Origin: Hericium rajendrae
Lineage: Eukaryota; Basidiomycota; Agaricomycetes; Russulales; Hericiaceae
Length of the DNA stretch: 64,000 nucleotides
Assembly (NCBI GenBank): GCA_033439255.1
Contig: CM065879.1
Location: forward strand, 1,158,501-1,222,500
Reading direction: 5' to 3'
The notes under the pieces are model-generated. The model made no database searches. It had not been told where the DNA came from and saw only the letters and a program-made list of their open reading frames with translations. Position numbers and translations under genes: made by a program. Shown one piece after another: positions 1,550 to 36,475 of the stretch (within the stretch, counting starts at the first letter, position 1; each line of letters starts with the position of its first letter).

Positions 1550-4500
1550 TCACCGCCGCTCGGCCTTGCCAGCGAACGCCCGCAGCCGTTTCAGCATCTC
1601 CTCCATCCCGACTTCACGCTCCGACGACGCGCGCTCGCGCTCGATCACCTGCGCGATCGACGGCGTGCGATCTCGCGCCAGATTCTGCGCATACTGCGCA
1701 CCCGCCGCCTCGCTGCTCGCGCGCGCAAATGGGAGCGCGCCCGCGGCCGAGATGCGTCGCAGCGCCTTGGACGCACGCCGCTCCTCCTTCTCGCGCCGCC
1801 GCTCGTCCGTCCCCTCCTTTTCCGTCCCGAGCCCGCTCTGCGAGCTCGAGCTCCCGCTCAGGACTAACGACGACGACGCCGAGTCGCGGTTGGCCTCGGG
1901 CGCGGGCGCGCCGTTCGGCGGCCGCAGCCGTGCCTCCTGGTTCTCGACCTCGGGGATGGCATCCAGCGCGGCGCTCTCGTCCACCACGATGCCCAGACCT
2001 TTGCTTCCCACGTCCTCCGCGTTCCTTGTGCGCTGAGAGGTATTCACACTCGGGCCGGGGACAGTATACGCGCGATGCGTCCTTGTCGGCGGCGAGTCCT
2101 TCTCCCCGGGCGTCGATGCTTGCTCAGGCGAGCTCTCCTCGCCCGACTTGACGTGCCCATTCACGACGAGATACCGCAGCCCGCTGATCTCGCGGTCACG
2201 CCGCCGCGCGGCGCGCTCTAGGACGTCGATGCGCGCGAGCAGCGCCACTTTGTCGGCCTCGAGCTCCGCGTTGCGCGCGAGTGCGGCCTGCAACGTGTCC
2301 GGCGCGCTTTTTTCCGAGTCGGCGTCCTTGTTCTTGCTGGTGCGCTCGTCAATGCTCTTCAGAGGCGTGCTGTGCGTGCGCGCCCGGTTCTTGTCTTGCG
2401 GCACCGGCAGGGACACGAGGGACGGGATCGTCGGCAGGCCTGATATGCTGTCAGGGTTGCTGCCAGACGGCATGACAAGCGTGCCCGAGGACGCAGACGA
2501 TGACGACGGCGCAGTCGAGATTGACGACGGCATCGAGACAAGCGTCTGCGCGGACAGACTCGATCCGCTCGCCGAGCTGGTCGAGATGGACCGTACAGAG
2601 CGCATGGAATCGGAGGGGATGACGGGCAGCGGCTTTTGCGGTGGCGGCGACGCGGCAGCCAGATTCACCATGCGCGAGGGCGACGGGCTCGTCGGCGATG
2701 CGCGTATCCTCGTCCCACCTGGGATGGGAGACTGCGAAGGCGATGCGGGCGGGGAGAGCGACTCGCGCAGGCGCGCCTTGAGCGACGAGTTCATGGAACT
2801 GGCGGCGGAGATGGTACGGCTGCGGAGCGAGGGCGTCAGAATGGGCGATGCCGTGGCTGAGCGCGTGCCGGATGGGTCCAACGTGGACGGCGCGTGCATG
2901 TTGGACTGCAGGGCAATCAGCCGATATCCAAACATCTTCAAAGTGTATGTCACTGACCAACTGCGACGGACGCGCGCTGGTCGTCCTTAGCCTCGACGAG
3001 CTCGAGCGCACAGACGATGTTGACGCATTCGTGCTCGTACTTCCAGAACGCCCGCGCGTGGGCGTCAGAACCTGCCTGGTGTCCTTCTCCTCGTCCTCCG
3101 ACTTTTCAAATGGCGCACCGAGCTCGAGCACGGCTTCGAGCTCCGCCGAGTTGTTCGATTCAGAACGGGCATGCTCATTGCCCGATCCGACTTTCGTGTT
3201 CTTCGCAGATTCGGCTTCGAATGCTTCGACGGCGCGCTCGCGGATCTAAACAGGGAGTGTCAGTGCCCCTTCCAGACTTAAGAGGCCGAACACATACCAG
3301 CTGTGCCGGGGTCGGCATCGGCTTCCGTACGTGTCTTTGTGGCGTCGCGGTCGGCGTCGGCGATGGCGACGGCGTAGTGCTGGGACTACGTGGCTGTGCC
3401 CCAGTGGGCATAGGCAGTCGGCCTTTGCCCGGCGTGCTCAGCGCGAGCTTCCGCCGCCCGCGATCTAGCTCGCGCTCACTCTCCGACGCGCTGGAGCGGA
3501 AGTCAAACACACGCTCGAGCTCGTCGCGCGAGCTGCCCGTCGCGCTCGTTGCGCTCGTTGACGCGCTCGGCGTGCGCGCGTGCAGCCGGTGCGAGTGATA
3601 TGTCGGGCGGCGCCCGCGGCCCGAGAACATCGATGTGCTTGTGCCCGAGCCAGTGCTCAGCTCGCCGTCACTCCGGACTTGCGAAGACGATGGCGACGCG
3701 ATGCGTGAGCGGGAGTGGGAACGCGGGAGGGCCGAGTTCGACGGAGGCGCGGGGCGCACGCGCTCGGCACTGTTGCGCTGTCCGCTGATGACGCTAGCTT
3801 CACCACTAGAGCGCACGATCGACGAGGAGCGTTGGTGCATGGTGGTCGAGACCGCAATGGGGACAGGCGCCTCGCGCGGCGAGACGTACATCTTCTCTTC
3901 CTCTGCAAGCTCGGCGGCGGTCGGCGCGGGCGCGGGCGAGATCGTGATGGTCGGCCGTGGCCGTTCGCGCTGCTGCTCCCGTTCCCTCTCCCTTAGCTTT
4001 GCGGCCGACGATGGCGGGAGGGGGATGAAGAACGCAGAGGATGACATCACGCTCACAGGCGAAGGGAGTGATGAGGCCGATGTGGAGACAGAATTGGATG
4101 CAGAATTGGATGCGGATGCGGATGTGGAAGTCGCGGTAGGTGTAGGGGTGTTGCGGTCACTGTCTCGACATTGTTGAGGTAATTGAAGCGGGAAGTCAGG
4201 TTTGGTCGGGGAGCCAGTGGGCGTTGCGTTTTCGCGATCCTGGCCGGAGGCGGATCCTCGGTGACGGTCACGGTGGTGCGAAGTGGTTACTGATCTCTGC
4301 GCTACAGAGGAGGGTGTCGGGGTCGTGGAACGGCCTGCGCCATTTGATGGGTGTACAGAGGGAGACGATGTGGGCGATCTGGTGAATTGGGATATTGGTG
4401 AAAACGAGGGTGTAGGCACATTCAGCGGGGGAAGCGAAGAATTCGGTGAAAGTGTCGTTGATGAAGAATGGCGACCGACTGGGAGTGGCGGCCTGGGGGA

Positions 4501-5237
4501 GCTTGACGAGCTTGCAGTGGGCTGAAAGCTGGCTCTGTAATGATCACCAAAGAGTCAGTACAATAGTTCATTTTGGTCTTTCCGGGACACGGAGACAAAA
4601 AGCTTAAATCTCGCGGGCGACGGAAGTAAAGCCACGTGCACGTAGACGGAGATAGCAACGGCAACATCCGAGCAACTGAACAACCGCCCAATAGACGCGC
4701 GAAATTTGCAGGAACGGCGCCAAACTAGTCAACGCGCGTGTCTGACGACAGCATTGGACATAAAATAGAGCATTTAGGCTGTCAACGAGGGCGTAGCATG
4801 CGGCAAGCTAGAACTGTGTGTCCACTCCACGTAGATCGGCGAGAACGTGGTGGCGATGGTCTATTGAAAATATAGGATGGCACGTACCCTGCAGACAGCC
4901 GCTTGAGTTTCCGCCAGTCCTTAGTCTTGGTCGTGCTCTCGCTCTCGCTGGCACTCGCGCTGGCGTCCTTAATCGTACCGGCGGACTTGCGCTTCAGACC
5001 GAAAAGTGGTATTCTGCGCTTGGAACGGGCACCAGGTTCCTTAGCCAGCTCAGCGGACGCGGCGGGCAGCAGAGGCGGGTGTGAATCGCGATGCGAGTGG
5101 GAGCGGCGGAGGAGGTCTGTGATGTCAGACGTCTTCGTGCGGAGGCGACGGGCAGCGGAGGGCGACGTGGTACTGGGCGAAGCCAAGGACATGGCGGGGG
5201 TGGAGGACGTGCTCAAGTTCGAGTTGACGTAGGACAT
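1550..5237 (-). CDS. Large Ser/Pro-rich protein with C-terminal coiled coil, unknown function
   Basis: Four exons fit well: 5237-4888, 4534-3298, 3245-2959 and 2905-1550, giving roughly 1,075 residues. The start ATG is followed by MSYVNSNLSTSSTPAMSL. Most of the protein is low-complexity Ser/Pro/Thr/Arg sequence with many SP and TP sites, which suggests a disordered phosphoprotein. A basic patch near residue 80 (SKRRIPLFGLKRKS) precedes it. Near residue 840 a heptad-like segment (LQAALARNAELEADKVALLARI..) is a probable coiled coil, followed by KALRRISAAGALPFARASSE and a charged tail ending GKAERR. No catalytic motif was found. A scaffold or cytoskeleton-linked role would be typical of such architecture but is only inference. 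The introns are 50-350 nt and all junctions keep frame. Confidence 0.7.
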
Positions 5238-8200
5238 GATGGAGGTTGTCCGTCACGGGCGGCAGGGGGGACAGAAACGAAACGGAAACGAGACGGAAAC
5301 AAGGAGCGTGAGGGTTGCGCAGAAAGAGCGTGAACCCCGAGAAAGACAACTGGCGGGAAAACAAGCGAACGCCAAGGCAACCTGTGAAACCGTCGCGGAC
5401 GCGAGGGAAAGGGGGACGGGGTATGGCTGCAGGCGGCGGGGAAAAGGAAGAGGAAGGAAGAGCAGAGGGCCTCAGTGGAGGGACGGATGTTCCATTCTGG
5501 ACACGCGCGTCCTCGCTGTTAAGCTTTAAGTTCTCTTGCCCTGCTCGATCTGGTTGTGGACATGTACTCCCAGTACTTCGTCCTTCGCACTGTTGTCTTG
5601 TGTTTTGCTCTTGTTGCTCATTTTTTCATCTTCATCTTTTGTTTTCGCCCTACCGTGTTCTGGCTCCCGCCGCTCCAGAGGTCTCCCGCGCCCCCCTGCC
5701 GTCCCCGTCCATGCGTCTGCAAAATGGAAGGAAAGGTCCGACGCCAGGGCACTGCCGTTATCCTGCTCGAGACCTATCTCGGCTAACAAGGCCATCAGCG
5801 CCCCAGATCGGGCCCCGATGCCCTTCTCGCTCACGAGATCCTTTTTGTTTGCTAGCATCCATGTCGCTCCACCTCGACGCTGTCTCCCGCCATGTCGGGC
5901 GTTGTTACACGTGTTGGCGCCAGCTACTTACGCTGTGCCCGACTCCGTGTCTCCCCTGAAAGTTGGTGGCGCACGGCGCCACAAGCCAGCGGATGCTGTC
6001 CCGACTACCCCGAATTCGCTTGCCGCACGCGCTCGTGTGCCTACCGACCCGACTAACGAGCGAGCTCCTTCGGCTATCCAATCAAATGTCTCACTCGAAA
6101 CAAGACGACGCGGCCCGAGCGCTTTGATTCTTCGACATTCCCTCGAATTCCTGTATCAGCTACATTATCGTCATAGACATCCCTGGCCAACATCGTGCAT
6201 CCACATGTCCACATAATGCAAATGCGCATCGCAAACGCGGTAAGTAAGCAATAACAAGTATGTATGACATCTCCGATCAAGCGTGGCGCGATTCGACGAC
6301 TGGCGCGCTGCCGCCATTGACAATATTTGACATATCCGACGTCGGAGGGAACCACGCGGACGCGCTCCGTAACTTCTCCGTAGTGCTCCATCTGTTGTCT
6401 TCGACAAGATCAAGTGCCGCTTTGCCACGATGGCCTGCCCGTGCGCACGCCATCACAAGCAAAATCGATACAATGACCCCGCCCTTGGCTGTGCTGTCTC
6501 GAATTTCCATCTATTTCGATCTGAATTTCCTTGTCTTTTGGTCTGCGCGGAACGTATTCTGATGCACCCCGAGCGTTCTATGGAACGGATCCCGCCATCA
6601 GTGCACGTGAATTTCCAATGCATGGCCCTCAGGCTCAAGCGCACGTCCGAAGTACGCCCGGCCACGGAGGCTTTAGTGCGACTCATTGTTTAGGCCATGC
6701 AGACGACGGGTGCAGTCGTCTTGTTTATTGCTTTTCCTTCAGTTGGAATCCCGGATGGAACGCTTATGCTAAATGCAAGATCCCGACAAATGCTATTTAA
6801 TGCATCGGCACCCGCGCGTCCTTCGCGTATGTCGAGCTTTGTTGCGCGTTCGTGTCCTCCAGATGCGAGGGTCTTTGCCACTGCGATTCCTGGCTGTACT
6901 GCCTTTCTATCTCATCTTCGTACTTCTGGAGTTCATTTCCGACACATAGAATGTCTTCCATTTGGGGTCAGCAGCGGAGACGAAAGCTCACGTCGTGCTA
7001 CGCGAAGAGCTTCGAGGATCTGTGATGCGTCTTGGTGGCCCGATCTGGCGAGTTCGCAATGGTGCATCGCGTCTGGTGTCTTCAAGCTTGTGGTGAGTTC
7101 ATCGTTGCCTGAATAATGTATTGTGAGACTCACGCAGAAATCTCATCACTCCAGGATGGTCGATGCAGAGCATCGGACGTATGTAGTACTCTGCGCGGTC
7201 TCAAATCCACCGACCGAAGCCTGTACTACAAGTCCAGATTCCCGCTGCTCGGATCCTCCCATGCCAAACACGATGACATGTTCCATTCTACACCTCCACG
7301 ACCCGGGTCGAGGGTCTGTCGTCGGTATGCTTTCCCCTCTCGTCCATCTCCTCCTCAACTTCAACATATCACCAAAAACGTCCACCATGTCACACTCGGG
7401 ACTACAAATTCAAATTCAGTTCGCCCGAACACTCGTCCTAGAGCAAGATATCCATGAATATGAAGAGACGCTTCATGGCTCCGTTTTCCACTATGGAAGC
7501 TTCCCGCATGGTAGCATGTCAACTGTCGTACTATATCGGCCACTCCTTTTGTTCTCGCATCTGGTAAGATGGCGCCCATATTCCTCGCCTTCTTTAATGT
7601 GCGGCACTCATCCGCTTCTAGCCATACGCTTGCGTCACCGAGGTGAGATTCTCGCCGCGATCAACAGAGGCTTATTTGACAGCGCGTCCGTCCGCGCATC
7701 GTGCAGGCTGAGGCATCTCAGACTTCCTATTGTGCCTTCATCTCCCCGCAGGTTTCCATTCGCCGTACTCCAGCTCCGACTTCGTCGCCCGGATCAACGA
7801 TCGGCCCTTCCCCTTCCCTCCGGGCTCCAAGGCTAAACACACAAAGTGCTCTGCCCCGTGCAATCCAACGTTACGCCCCACTCCTCATATCACAAAGTCA
7901 CTCGCCGGGCCACAAGAAAACGCGGTCTGGCATAGGGCACCGCAGGCTTTGCACTGGGTGCAATGGAGATGTCAGCTCGCCACGTAGCTCATCTAACGCA
8001 TTCATATGCTAGAACGCGCGAGAGGTGAGTGCAATTGGACTGCGTTACGTCGCGCACGCTGTGAGCTGTCACCCGGGCTCCTTCGGCGATGAGATACTAT
8101 ACTACGTCCACGGTCATCTCGCTGGCGCCCCGCGCTCTCCATGGCCCCACCGGCACCGGATGCATAGGCGAAATCGGCGATGTTTAATCTTCTGTGCGGT

Positions 8201-30492: not shown

Positions 30493-31483
30493 TCGATTCC
30501 GGGGAGAGCAAAAGTATTTTGGGCTATCGTCGTAGACTTGCTCGAAAATGATTATGAGTATCTCAGCGGGCAGGCATCCCCCAGCGGAGAGCTTAATGGA
30601 ACCCTCTCGCTTGAACGATTTCTTTGGAAAGAGGTCAATTCACCCGAAGGATAGGGAGACAATCAACGATAACGAACGACCTCTTCTCGAAAAGCCATTT
30701 CGAGATCTACGGTGAAAGGTGGAAGGTCACGGATCACTGTTTATAGGTTAACATAAGACAAGAGGGTAAATGCGGAGGCACATGCATCTGGCACTCTAGC
30801 ACGCGCCGACCACGCTATGGCCGAAGACGTGCGGCGCAGACATGCGAGTGAGATAAACGCAAAACACGGTGAGCCGGTTGTTGCCAAGTCTTCTTGTGCC
30901 GCAAGGCTAAACTGGGTGCGGGGCGCCCTGGCGACGTACGTGAATAGCGCACGGACGGATCTGAAACGGTATGCAGGACTCTTCCTTCGTCGTCGCAAGC
31001 AGATCCGGCGTTGAACATTTGAACACTGATAAGCAGCTAGTCAGACGAATCGAATGTACGCGAAAAACAGGTCCTCGGCGTATCCACTTGATTTGGCTCA
31101 TGTCGACTTGCGCACACCTGCCAGCAAGAACTGGTAATCACTGTCCATGTCTGCGACATAGCGAGAGCGTAAAGCGCCTTCGGAGCCATGGGACATTAAC
31201 GCCTTCAGATCAGAGGGTGCCTGCTGCGAACGGAGCCGGGCGGACCCCCGACGACGTCATGCGTAGCAGACGGCCTTTGCGTTGCCCATTGCGGGAGCGA
31301 GACTAGCTGGGCTCGCATCGCAGTGCGCAGCCTTGCAGGAGGAGGACGAGAGGTGCAGGAGCGTGAGTTTGGGTTGACGGTAGAAGGAAACCGGAATTGC
31401 ACAACGGGCTTCCGGGACAGTCGAGCGTGGCGACGGAATCAAATGGGGATGTTGAAGACGACGAGACGGGTACTGCTCTTTTA
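30493..31483. other. Gene-free flank of the transposon
   Basis: About 1 kb without recognised genes. Short open frames on both strands show no domain. The TA dinucleotides at 31471-31472 and 31482-31483 mark the insertion side of the transposon. Confidence 0.45.
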
Positions 31484-31580
31484 CTGCTCTTTTAGGAAAC
31501 CTTGCGTGGCACGTCTGAACGCGCGGCGAAATCCCGAAACTCCCGAAAACTCGAGAAACTCGAAAAAACTCGAAAAACCA
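31484..31580 (+). repeat. Left terminal inverted repeat of the transposon
   Basis: It begins CTGCTCTTTTAGGAAACCTT, continues with GCGTGGCACGTCTGAACGCG, and ends in repeats of GAGAAACTCGAAAA. Its mate is 35140-35236. The first 11 bases, including the TA, are repeated directly outside (TACTGCTCTTT at 31471 and at 31482), which is unusual. Confidence 0.8.
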
Positions 31581-31687
31581 TAGCTCACTTCCTATACCCC
31601 CCTATAATCACCTTCTACATGTCCTAAAGCCTTGTTATCTTGTATTACTTCATAACTCTTACTATTTCCACACTCTTTTGCAAAAAA

Positions 31688-33785
31688 ATGCCCAACTCCG
31701 AGGTCATCAGCATCAGTGATGATGAAGAAGACAGTGCCCGTGATGAGCCCCGTATGGATGAGGATTCAGAAGGCTTCTATGGTGAAGATGAGGAGGAGAT
31801 TGATGAACTGGACTCTGAAGGTGAGTCCGGACATATACCGAGCAGATTTTCGACTGAATCCTTGTAGAGTATGCCGAAGCCGTCCCACCACAGCGGCCAC
31901 TCATGCTTCGCATTCCCGCGCGCTCACGTGTCGTAGCGGACCACGCCAGGCCTGTCAAGAGCCGTTCGCATGAGCAAGCCGAGCGTCACAGCAGTCCAGA
32001 CCAGCACGATGTTGTGTACAACGCGCCGCGGACACCGCCGAATCGAAAACGGCAGCGCAGTCCCATCACTCCTGGCGGGCCTGTTCGAAAACACCGAGCT
32101 CGAGACACTGAAGAGCGTGCATCACAGGTGGCCCAGTCTGCAGATCACCCGCTTCACAAGTATCTCGAGGAGATGAGGAGGGACGAAGAGAGCGACGAGG
32201 AAGTACGCCGCTCAATGGCGTCACTTTCACGGCGTTCTGTTACGTCGCAGCCATCTCAGTCCACGCGGACACCCGTTATCAAGGGCGAAGACTCCGCATC
32301 CGCATCGCAACCTCGCCGCAAGCCTGGACGGCCATCCAAACCTCGACCACCTGAACTCCCGCAAGCACCAGCTGTTGACCCGAAGACGGCACCTTTCACG
32401 GAGATGCTCCACCTCGAGGTGCAGCTGCACGATGTTCTCGTCAAGGGCAGGACTCCCCGAGGTGACAAGATGAAGTCGGGAGGAATCTGGAAAGGCGGTC
32501 CCGTGCAGTTGACGAACGACATGACCTGGCAAGATTTCCTCGGTGTTCTCGCAGAAGGCGTCCATTCCGAGATTGCAAATCTCGATACCCCTTCAATGGC
32601 TTGGCGCTGGAACAGCCAATCGTCGCAGCGCCGTCTGGCTTTGACGAATGAGGTCGGGTTCACGGCCATGACGGACCAGATCCGAGCATTCATGCAGAAG
32701 AACAAGACCACTCTGCTGGAGCCTATCATGATTCATATGACGGAGCCTCGCAAGGCGACGCAGAATCTCCCGGTGCGTCTTACATTCTTGTCATTATCTA
32801 GGTCTGCGACTGATTCACCTTTTCAGCCATGGTCATCTACCGCATCTTCGACAGCACAGAATCAGTCACAGCATCTCGTGCTTGACGTGAATTCAGCTGG
32901 TGGTGCAAAGGTGCGTATTTATGCTTATCATTGTTGCTGCTTTTTCTAACTCTTGCGCAGCTGTCACTTGATCAGCAACTCCGTCCGATTGTCGAACGTC
33001 TTGACTTGAAATACCCGAAAGGACTTTGCGCCATGCATCCCACACTTAAATGCTTCCATTATCAGCCAAATAATTGGCACTTTGAGCTCACATCGACACG
33101 ACTTAGTGTCTGGGCATCATCAATTGTATGTGTTGAGTTGCTGAATATCCTTTGATACTAATAGGATCTCTAATAGCTAAAGAATCTTTCGACGGATGAC
33201 AATGTCCCAATCGGATCAGCATGCTTTCGTGAATCTGACAATATACGGGCATCAAAAAGCACAAACGCAGCTCCTGCGGCAACGACTAATACCCCTGTTG
33301 TTGCGCAAGGCATGCCATCTGGATCTGGAGCATGGCCCTCATTTTCCTTTCCTGGGATGCCTCCTGCACCTGGATTTCAGCATCCATTTTACCAATCTTT
33401 CACCCCATATGGATACCCGTTCTCTTCACCAGCTCAGCTTCCATTTCCATCACCTCCTCATCCAAATTCACCCTATCCTCAGCAGCCGCAGGCTGGCCCC
33501 TCAAATGAGCGAAGCTATAATCCACCTTCATCTCCAATCACCTTTGATTCAGCCATTACTGTGGACGAATGGTGTGCAGAGATGGGTTTGGGAGACAATA
33601 TTGCCTCACGCCTTCATTCCTTAGGTTTTCAGCCTGGTGATAATTTATCAGATCTGCCTGATGATATGTGGAAGGATGCTGGATTCCTGCTGCTTGAGTG
33701 GAAGCGGGTTGTACGTGCTGCACAGCACTATCGTAACCGTGTTCGTAATGAGCGTCGGCAGATGAAAGGTAATCATGGTACTTAA
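31688..33785 (+). CDS. Transposon accessory protein with AT-hook and SAM-like domain
   Basis: Five exons (31688-31820, 31868-32772, 32827-32910, 32961-33125, 33177-33785) join in frame to give 631 residues. The N-terminus is acidic (MPNSEVISISDDEEDSARDE). Residues 55-180 are basic and disordered with SP sites. An AT-hook-like motif RRKPGRPSKPRP lies near residue 195. A conserved-looking central domain of about 120 residues follows (TEMLHLEVQLHDVLVKGR, MTWQDFLGVLAEGVHSEI, AMTDQIRAFMQ), possibly of ubiquitin/PB1-like fold. After a Pro-rich linker the C-terminus has WCAEMGLGDNIASRLHSLGF and LLLEWKRVVRAAQHY, matching a SAM domain. It carries no transposase motif. I infer a DNA-binding or complex-forming partner of the transposase, or a captured host gene. 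Confidence 0.7.
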
Positions 33786-33977
33786 AGAAGTTGAGATATT
33801 GTAGTTTACATTCAGTTACACAAACCCCCACTCAGTCCTTTTTGTCTTCATTCGTTACTACACATAGACACTTTGACTTATCTTCTAATATTTAATTTGC
33901 TTTTATAACATCTCCTAGTAAATTTGGGACCTCTCTCTTTAGATACATCACTATCAAAAGCACATGATCATTAGATT

Positions 33978-35099
33978 CTAATATCCACAGTCCTGAAACC
34001 ACCCTGCTGCTTTTTCAGCTGTTATTGCATTTGCACAGGCCTCTAAGATGTCCAACTCCATGTTAGCACTATTACGCAGGGCCATACAGTGCCTCAAGAA
34101 ATAAGCCTTGACTGAACTCAACATTTTAGTATATGAGCATATAGTGTTAATATTTGTGAAACTCACCAGTACTAAAGCTTTCTTCAATTGGATTGAAGTC
34201 GGGAGAATAGGCAGGAAGGAAGACAAGAAGACATCCTTAAAATAAAGTACTATAAGCTTTCAGATCTCAAGATTCTTATTGAACTTGCACCTGAAGCTTG
34301 AATTAAATCTCTGAGTGCCTCACTTTTATGTATATTACAGTTGTCCATCACAAGGATGCTGCGATCCTGTGGATATGGGTTCATCATTGGAAGCTACAGA
34401 TAATTTAGCCACTTGAAATGCTGAGAGAATAAGTTCTAAACATACCAGATCACGAGCGACAAAGTCATAAAATTCCAGCCCATTAACAGATCCCGCGACA
34501 ACACGAGTTGCAATGTAGCCATCCAGTGTGAGTGCTGGGAGGAGACTGTAGCGTTGACCACGCTCATGTGGCATGATCTCGGTTGCTCGCTGACCAACTG
34601 CAGCCCGACCGTAATCACGTTCAAGATTACGGCCATCAAAGCTCGATTCGTCAATGAAGACATATTGAGCTGCAGCATAGTTCAGGGTTGTAGTGGCTCG
34701 CCATGCAGCACGGAGGGCTGGGTCACGCTGCGCAGCACATTTGTGGAGCCGTTTGTAGGTGAGGCCGATGGCTGAAAGTGTGTTGTGAAGGGCTCCGACA
34801 CTGATAGAGGTGTCATGAACAACGGCAAGCCATGCGACAATCTCGTCCAAATAGAGGGAGGGAAGATCGAGTAGAAGGTTGCGCATATCCTCGATGACCG
34901 TCGCATTGAGCAAACGAGGGCGTCCTCGATGAGGATGCGGAGGTATGACAGATCTGTGATGTTCAGCATAAGCTGCCCATCGACGGATACTGTCACGAGA
35001 AACATTCAAAGCAAGAATGATCTCGTCCTCGCCCCACCCATCTTCAAGGAGCTCGATTGCACGCCATTTGATGCCGGGGTCGATTTTCCGAAAGACCAT
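33978..35099 (-). CDS. Tc1/mariner DD34E transposase (DDE_3 type)
   Basis: Exons 35099-34446, 34393-34291, 34235-34167 and 34111-33978 join in frame to 319 residues. The N-terminus has two helix-turn-helix segments (WRAIELLEDGWGEDEIILAL; VGALHNTLSAIGLTYKRL) linked by HRGRPRLL, as in paired-type DNA-binding domains. The catalytic acids are visible: D in YVFIDESSFDG, D in LVMDNCNIHKSEALRD, and E in YSPDFNPIEESF. Exactly 34 residues separate the last two, hence DD34E. All four exons are open and the splice sites are canonical GT-AG, so the enzyme may be active. The protein ends GWFQDCGY, convergent with the accessory gene. Confidence 0.88.
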
Positions 35100-35139
35100 G
35101 ACTCAAATGAGAAGAACGGGGCAGAGAGTAACGGCCTGC

Positions 35140-35236
35140 AAGATTTCTCGAGTTTCTCGAGTTTCTCGAGTTTTTCGAGTTTTCGGGATTTCGCGGGGCG
35201 TTCAGGCGCGCCACGCAAGGTTTCCTGAAAGAGCAG
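35140..35236 (-). repeat. Right terminal inverted repeat of the transposon
   Basis: Read on the minus strand from 35236 it begins CTGCTCTTTCAGGAAACCTT and continues GCGTGGCGCGCCTGAACG, then four GAGAAACTC-type words. It pairs with 31484-31580 and is followed by TA. Confidence 0.8.
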
Positions 35237-35257
35237 TAAGATCAATTTGTAGAACTA

Positions 35258-36475
35258 CTGCTGATTTAGAAAACCTTGCGTGGCGCGCCCGAACGCGCGT
35301 CGAAATTCCGAAACTACCGAAAACTCGAGAAACTCGAAAAATTGCGCAGACTGTTACTCTCTGCCCATTTCTTCTCAGTCTTTCGGAAAATCGACTCCAG
35401 TATTAAATAGCATGTAATTGAACTCCTAAAGAATGGGTGGGGCAAGAATGCTGTTCTAAATCGGGAAGACCCTCTTACTACGAGACTTACGACTCACGAG
35501 GTCTCATTCAGAAAATACGAAGGCTCGGAACTCAGCAAAAGCTCATACGAGTCATAGGGGTTTGTTTTTTTGTTCTCCAAAATAGCCTACAGTAGTTACA
35601 TGAAAGATATGTACACTATAATTCCCTAGCTAGGTGGTTGACTTATGCATGTGTGGCATGGAGTGGTCTCGGGCAAATGGATGGGCCAGGATGCTCCAGC
35701 AGAATGCATAGGAGCGGAATGGGCATGCGGATGGGTTTTCCACGGGCGAATGGAGTGGGAGCGGGTATGAGCGAACGGGTGTGCGACGGGTGGGTAGGCA
35801 TGTGATGAGCGGGTTGGCATGCGACTGGCCGACGCGCGGGCGTGCTGCGGGCGCACGCGCATGTGTGCGTGCACGCATACATGTTGCTGGAGGACGGGGA
35901 GGACGCGCAGAGCCAGAGGTGAAGGAAGGAAGGAAGTGCATGCAGCCAGCGAGTATACAGCATGCATGCTCCCGACGTGGGCACGTACTCGTCGTGCTGG
36001 CCTTCATGGTTGTGATCCTCAGCTTGCTCGTGCGAACGGCTCTTGACAGGCCTGTTAGTTCGGTATGACATGCGAGTGCGTGGGGGAATGCGAAGCATGA
36101 GAGGGCCACTATTCGACAACAGGCATCCAGTCGAAATGCATTTCGTCATGTTTGCAGAATCACCTTCAAGTCCAGCTGATCTATCTCCTTGTCATCTTTG
36201 TCATGTAACCCTTCTGAACCGTCGTCCATGCAGGGTTCGTCACGGACGATGCCTTTTTCATTACTGACGCTGATGACCTCGGAGACGGGCATTTCGCAGA
36301 AAGGGAGTGACAGATAGCAATAATAACGAGATAACGAGAGTTTAGGACATGTAAAAGATGATTATATGAGGTGTATAAGGTGAGCTAGAGTTTTTCTGAG
36401 TTTCTCGAGTTTTTGTGAGTTTCGGAATTTCGCCGCGCGTTCAGGCGCGCCACGCAAGGTTTTCTAAATCAGCAG
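35258..36475. mobile_element. Non-autonomous derivative of the same transposon family
   Basis: This 1.2-kb element has its own pair of inverted repeats of about 85 bp, both beginning CTGCTGATTTAGAAAACCTT. They differ from the neighbour's termini (CTGCTCTTT..). TA dinucleotides flank it at 35256-35257 and 36476-36477. There is no transposase. On the minus strand near 36275 the interior keeps a decayed start of the accessory gene (MPVSEVISVS.., compare MPNSEVISIS..), then DEPCMDDGSEG and the PVKSRSHEQAE segment. It is therefore an internally deleted copy in opposite orientation. Only 21 bp separate it from the larger element. Confidence 0.8.

Follow-up and report, generated by a model that had tools for sequence, protein, structure and literature searches.

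A two-gene transposon of the Tc1/IS630 type in Hericium rajendrae and a probable partner protein of its DD34E transposase

Transposons of the Tc1/mariner type, which serve as gene-delivery tools, are the textbook example of an element with a single gene. In the basidiomycete Hericium rajendrae, a stretch of 64,000 nucleotides (GenBank assembly GCA_033439255.1, contig CM065879.1, positions 1,158,501 to 1,222,500 of the forward strand; hereafter the window) contains at 31484-35236 an element of this type with an intact second gene, here called the accessory gene, convergent with the transposase gene. Does this gene belong to the element, and what might its product do there? An initial annotation, made from the letters of the window, had proposed either a part of the transposition machinery or captured host cargo. 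The first option fits better, because the gene has been kept across old lineages and is under purifying selection in those pairs of copies that can be dated. With moderate confidence, we regard the element as a member of an old IS630/Tc1 branch with two convergent genes, one for a DD34E transposase and one for a partner protein that helps transposition. The second protein is probably such a partner rather than a passenger.

The element is flanked by target-site TA dinucleotides, read directly from the sequence at 31482..31483 and 35237..35238. Its arms (31481-31567 and 35153-35239) form inverted repeats of 87 nucleotides that are 87% complementary, in agreement with the TA-flanked repeats of about 95 bp described initially. 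Within them, the terminal inverted repeats (TIRs) span 31484..31567 (left, plus strand) and 35153..35236 (right, minus strand). AACTCGA repeats, spaced 9-10 bp apart, occur three times in the left TIR, at its inner end, and four times in the right, where tandem 9-mers (GAGTTTCTC) run inward to about 35141. The accessory gene starts approximately 120 bp inward of the inner end of the left arm and the transposase gene approximately 50 bp inward of the right arm, and their stop codons are approximately 190 bp apart. As a separate observation, the final 11 bases of the element (TACTGCTCTTT / AAAGAGCAGTA) recur in tandem just outside both the window element (31471-31492) and its short copy C3 (L059, 3588-3609), perhaps as the footprint of excision or of re-insertion beside an old end.

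The initial annotation was correct in describing both genes as intact. The transposase gene, on the minus strand, comprises four exons by predicted splicing: 34446..35099 (helix-turn-helix [HTH] region and catalytic D150), 34291..34393 (D235), 34167..34235 (E270) and 33978..34111, which includes the stop. They encode 319 amino acids, with 34 residues between D235 and E270 (DD34E). Pfam DDE_3 (PF13358) matches this protein with E=9.9e-29, the NCBIfam IS630 model NF033545 scores 159 bits (cut-off 100), and HTH_33 matches the N-terminus at 25.3 bits (cut-off 25); a comparison with the PDB returned only Sleeping Beauty (E 0.67). The DDE_3 domain with DD34E, the TIRs with TA and the N-terminal HTH are those of the IS630-Tc1-mariner group.

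The accessory gene, on the plus strand, has five exons separated by predicted GT..AG introns and encodes 631 amino acids followed by a stop. Exon 1 (31688..31820) starts with MPNSEVISISDDEED and is acidic, exon 2 (31868..32772) contains a basic region with PGRP and a possible PB1-like region, and exon 3 (32827..32910) is followed by exon 4 (32961..33125), which carries a C-x2-H-x4-C-x8-H motif and ends in W-A-S-S-I at a phase-0 intron. Exon 5 (33177..33785) encodes a Pro/Ser-rich linker, a SAM-like C-terminus and the stop. The order along the protein is accordingly acidic start, basic stretch, possible PB1-like region, C-x2-H..C..H, Pro/Ser-rich linker and SAM-like C-terminus.

A search of the genome (46.8 Mb in 19 contigs; counts of matches are lower bounds throughout) with the transposase gave 52 matches, which fall into at least 25 loci including the window. 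At 23 of these 25, belonging to about 15 lineages, a homologue of the accessory gene lies on the opposite strand, downstream of the transposase 3' end and convergent with it. The window, L063 (TIR of 118 nucleotides) and L064 (89 nucleotides) have the full five-exon gene between both TIRs. TIRs with TA target sites are present at L063 and L064 and likewise, at both ends, at L056 and L054. The other 18 two-gene loci were read as approximately 1.5 kb of flank or as a partial stretch, and exon 4 and/or exon 5 was found in them; at L038, what remains is a portion of exon 5, a TIR search of L055 found no arms, and the least certain assignment is L026, whose exon 4 scores E=0.069 (0.0079 in the leave-out test described below).

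The converse search, which the initial annotation had suggested together with one for the inverted repeat, gave a similar picture. Seven accessory queries led to at least 21 loci beside a transposase, of which 7 are the queries' own or near-identical loci; it was the transposase search alone that reached L026 and L028. Apart from loci beside a transposase, the accessory queries met two short copies within TIRs, a weak place on C13 (E=0.004) and, on C17, three orphan fragments of about 130-460 bp. The 3.2-3.8 kb around each orphan fragment contains neither a transposase match nor a TIR-like pair. The gene is thus not found mainly outside inverted repeats, as it might have been if the first assignment were wrong, and the claim that it belongs to the family and is no chance insertion is strongly supported by its presence at 23 of 25 loci, the shared gene structure and co-divergence with the transposase. 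Two further structures were noted at these loci. L063 contains at 5433-7001 an inverted repeat of 681 nucleotides, 100% complementary with 207 nucleotides between its arms, which lies approximately 80 bp from the element and reaches the end of the stretch read; it is either a further palindromic element or an artefact of the assembly. At L056, an insert (3542-5650) with arms of 480 nucleotides, 97% complementary, splits the transposase.

The accessory genes of the window, L063 and L064 show 26-28% identity. In all three, the five exons are separated by introns of phases 1,0,0,0, and introns 3 and 4 fall in identical alignment columns, with intron 2 within one column. The GT donor follows directly after W-[AG]-x-x-[ILM] in 19 of the 22 rows listed; of the exceptions, the motif of L039 was read from the translation, and the sequences of L054 and L055 stop short of it. 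Further, profiles of exon 4 were built with one family left out at a time and scored against 4325 open reading frame (ORF) fragments. A profile built without the window recovered the window exon with E=1.3e-6. Similarly, the left-out exons of L027, L029, L034, L035 and L040 were recovered at 1.4e-11 to 7.3e-11, and those of L030 (4.5e-9), L028 (9e-9), L042 (2e-8), L044 (2.3e-8), L053 (2.3e-8), L047 (9.9e-8), L054 (5.3e-5), L056 (3.7e-4) and L026 (0.008) followed; L036 and L039, of the L027/L034 group, are not among the values listed. The background of the test was set by the best wrong-strand or L032/L037 matches, at 0.31-2.6, and by one plus-strand match elsewhere in the window, at 0.37.

The two genes have also diverged together. 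Distances between transposases and between accessory proteins are correlated (Mantel r 0.81, with none of 20,000 permutations as high) over 15 rows, which represent each close group once or twice after L029, L035, L040 and L044 were dropped as near-duplicates; the accessory set is without L033, L038, L054 and L055. Younger groups agree between the two trees, and the deepest forks are unresolved or different. The transposase tree joins the window with L063/L064 (93/94). The ratio of nonsynonymous to synonymous substitution rates (dN/dS) between copies, a comparison proposed at the outset, shows the accessory gene to be under purifying selection in the datable pairs. This is clear in L027/L029, the best unsaturated pair, with dS 0.46 and dN/dS 0.15 in exon 5 and 18 synonymous and no nonsynonymous changes in exon 4 (pooled Fisher p ~2e-24, with approximate site counts). 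In exon 4, dN/dS is 0.07 for L045/L033, and synonymous and nonsynonymous changes number 2/0 for L034/L035 and 5/0 for L034/L040. Synonymous sites are saturated in L063/L064, L027/L034, L036/L039 and all pairs with the window, and the ratios of those pairs carry little weight.

The accessory gene is missing at two loci, L032 and L037. They belong to one family with a single gene and match each other at 99.4% over 1430 bp; L032 measures 1.48 kb and has arms of 142 nucleotides. The transposase region and end of L032 share 81% DNA identity with the two-gene locus L036, and the transposase tree groups L032/L037 with L036 and L039 (100/99). Because the tree nests them inside the two-gene clade, loss of the second gene is the simplest reading and a likely one. 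Complete copies lacking the plus-strand gene, which the initial annotation had named as evidence that would overturn its claim, do therefore exist, but in another family and with loss suggested by the tree. L037 also has apparent inserted stretches (8-2941), one of which (41-895) has inverted ends of its own. A Pfam DDE_3 search of the genome pointed to 12 further places, 4 of them below the Pfam cut-off, and two of the 12, L070 and L071, were read. Their arms measure 213 and 55 nucleotides, respectively, and the transposase of L070 is interrupted by a stop. Between the arms of both there is no accessory match above background, and no frame of at least 120 codons besides the transposase. From their motifs, they are read as classical Tc1-like elements. 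The L071 element (1571-2890) apparently sits inside retrotransposon-like sequence, with flanking frames that look reverse-transcriptase- and integrase-like.

The window element is the only full-length member of its own family found in the genome. Its TIR occurs at no fewer than 15 places, namely its own two ends, both ends of six short copies (the neighbour, C1, C3, C8, C10 and C12) and one end at C4. The short copies are each approximately 1.2 kb long and have TIRs and a TA target site, as the window element does. C1, C3 and C12 are mutually 98.5-99.7% identical, and other pairs reach 67-72% in their best stretch. In each, approximately 390-540 bp from the accessory side and approximately 200 bp from the transposase side enclose a middle of unrelated sequence. 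The neighbour, at 35258..36475 on the minus strand and thus in opposite orientation, is a non-autonomous relative with TIRs, approximately 490 bp of the accessory side and approximately 190 bp of the transposase side. It had been said to keep a piece of the accessory gene and no transposase; the start of the accessory gene is indeed kept, but so are approximately 70 nucleotides of the transposase 5' end.

What the accessory protein is made of is less plain. A Pfam scan of all 631 residues gave no match at E up to 1. The proposed SAM-like C-terminus is weakly supported. A profile search of the PDB placed SAM chains of EphB2, Caskin-1/EphA6 and ANKS1A/EphA6 in the top three positions (E 0.011, 0.06 and 0.11), followed by NusA and DMC1/Rad51, but no SAM model appeared in the Pfam scans, one of which gave only stray single-member matches (best MerR_2, 0.0042). 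For the exon 2 region, one of six members matches Pfam PB1 at E=0.2, below another stray match at 0.0065, and a low-confidence model shows a possible PB1-like order of strands and helices. The zinc-finger-like exon 4 retrieved nothing useful from the PDB. Without an alignment, the SAM-like part was modelled with a predicted local distance difference test score (pLDDT) of 73, a predicted template modelling score of 0.49 and a best Foldseek E of 0.48; the exon 2 part reached pLDDT 40. Searches of viral and prokaryotic contigs with the accessory alignment found no relative, a result of little weight given the narrow patterns and unlikely hosts. The AT-hook-like motif reported initially corresponds to PGRP in the window protein; L063 and L064, its two closest full-length relatives, have basic stretches without PGRP, and an AT-hook as the defining feature of the protein was rejected. 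The start of the protein (MPNSEVISISDDEED, window 31688-31730), absent from L063/L064, resembles a SUMO-interacting motif.

How might such a protein assist a transposase? The partner would be nuclear and would bind the ends of the element, or the transposase located there, through its basic and zinc-finger-like parts. The SAM-like and possibly PB1-like parts could then multimerise it along the repeat-bearing TIRs, and the multimer may assemble or stabilise the transposase complex, by analogy with the ORF1/Myb-like protein of PIF/Harbinger elements. If the partner can act in trans, the short copies, although non-autonomous, and L032/L037, although single-gene, would be able to move, which would explain both.

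Several results weigh against a partner role or the homology behind it. In the leave-out test, L063 (0.075), L045 (0.19) and L064 (0.53) lie near background, and the Cys/His residues of exon 4 are lost in L063 and L064, though retained in L045; the homology of L063/L064 is accepted because of the full-length comparison, and that of L045 also because of L030 and the shared intron. The accessory tree puts the window with L030/L045 (54/81, on long branches) and not with L063/L064. No Pfam family lies above its cut-off for the accessory protein or its relatives, the SAM assignment is weak with a best PDB match of E=0.011, the PB1-like region gave nothing useful against the PDB, and the single-sequence models are poor, with uninformative Foldseek results. 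The transposase has an HTH of its own. The transposases of L032/L037 are free of stops in the matched parts and the copies are nearly identical, hence a partner gene in cis is not an absolute requirement. Lastly, exon 5 of the youngest copies (L034/L035, L034/L040 and L042/L044) shows dN/dS of 0.49-0.78 on 5 to 13 changes, and recent copies may be drifting in this exon.

Other roles for the second protein can be set against these data. It might shield the element from its host, through anti-silencing or as a chromatin tether of the element or the transposase, outside the cutting complex. Chromatin contacts would suit the SAM- and PB1-like parts and the start VISISDDEED with its likeness to a SUMO-interacting motif, and L032/L037 persist without the protein; however, this start is not found in L063/L064, and linkage and co-divergence fit a transposase partner at least as well, so that we consider host protection unlikely, if worth keeping in mind. 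Regulation of its own element, by repression or copy-number control, or titration of the transposase strikes us as rather improbable. The loss of the gene in L032/L037, which nevertheless exist as two nearly identical copies, would agree with such a role, as would the first part of the accessory gene in all six short copies, but these retain the transposase side too, and retention may merely mark undeleted ends.

That the gene is host cargo carried by chance is very improbable, even though it belongs to no known domain family and has introns of its own. About 15 lineages share it, and accessory queries lead to 21 transposase-adjacent loci and 2 TIR copies versus 3 orphans and 1 weak place. Chance insertion and cargo were both rejected for this genome on the grounds of 23 of 25 loci, convergent placement and co-divergence with the transposase. 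A dying passenger with no present function, a view to which the exon 5 ratios of the youngest copies lend something, has equally little to recommend it in light of the open frames and canonical introns of the window, L063 and L064 and of how strongly L027/L029, as well as exon 4 of L045/L033, L034/L035 and L034/L040, are constrained.

That a branch has retained a second gene over deep divergences points to another mode of assembly for the transposition complex. More tentatively, and with somewhat less than even confidence, a large eukaryotic IS630/Tc1 clade could be a two-component system that needs an undescribed partner family polymerising on repeat-bearing ends, its single-gene members being derived and dependent on their kin. 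The likely natural loss of the gene in L032/L037 provides a way to test whether the partner is needed. In addition, the exon that ends in W-[AG]-x-x-[ILM] and in most cases carries a zinc-finger-like motif offers an annotation marker for genes that are possibly listed as hypothetical proteins.

Among known systems, classical Tc1/mariner and IS630 elements share DD34E, DDE_3, the HTH, the TA target site and TIRs with the window element. As initially annotated, they encode a transposase only, and the available text of PMC9977792 gives one transposase per element as the classical Tc1 model; the window element departs from it through its intact second gene, and its lineage has a convergent second gene at 23 of 25 loci. 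A literature search of partial coverage, which lacked Repbase and most subscription papers, turned up no basidiomycete Tc1/IS630 element with two genes, so earlier notice is possible. The same paper, as far as its available text goes, calls Tc1-OP1 of Ogataea yeast the first nonclassical Tc1 element (PMC9977792, 2023). It is likewise a fungal Tc1 element, with 169-bp TIRs and an extra Ser/Pro-rich domain X, but its domain X shares a single ORF with a DD40E transposase, whereas the window element has two separate, spliced, convergent genes and DD34E. Ciliate TBE/Tec elements are described, in the portion of PMC7325037 available, as Tc1/mariner DD34E elements with several ORFs, TBE having TIRs of approximately 80 bp and a zinc finger protein. 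They differ in their ciliate hosts and three ORFs, and the likeness to the window element is one of description. A precedent for such a partner comes from PIF/Harbinger elements. According to the available part of PMC2836001, these carry two independent genes, a Myb-like ORF1 and a transposase, which are both needed and which mobilise short relatives; ORF1 attaches to the TIRs, interacts with the transposase and is required for the nuclear localisation of the latter. PIF/Harbinger elements have another transposase family, a 3-bp target site and a different second protein, whereas the window element has a TA target site and an IS630/DDE_3 transposase. Should the two-component reading of the clade be true, it would be the Tc1-side counterpart of PIF/Harbinger.

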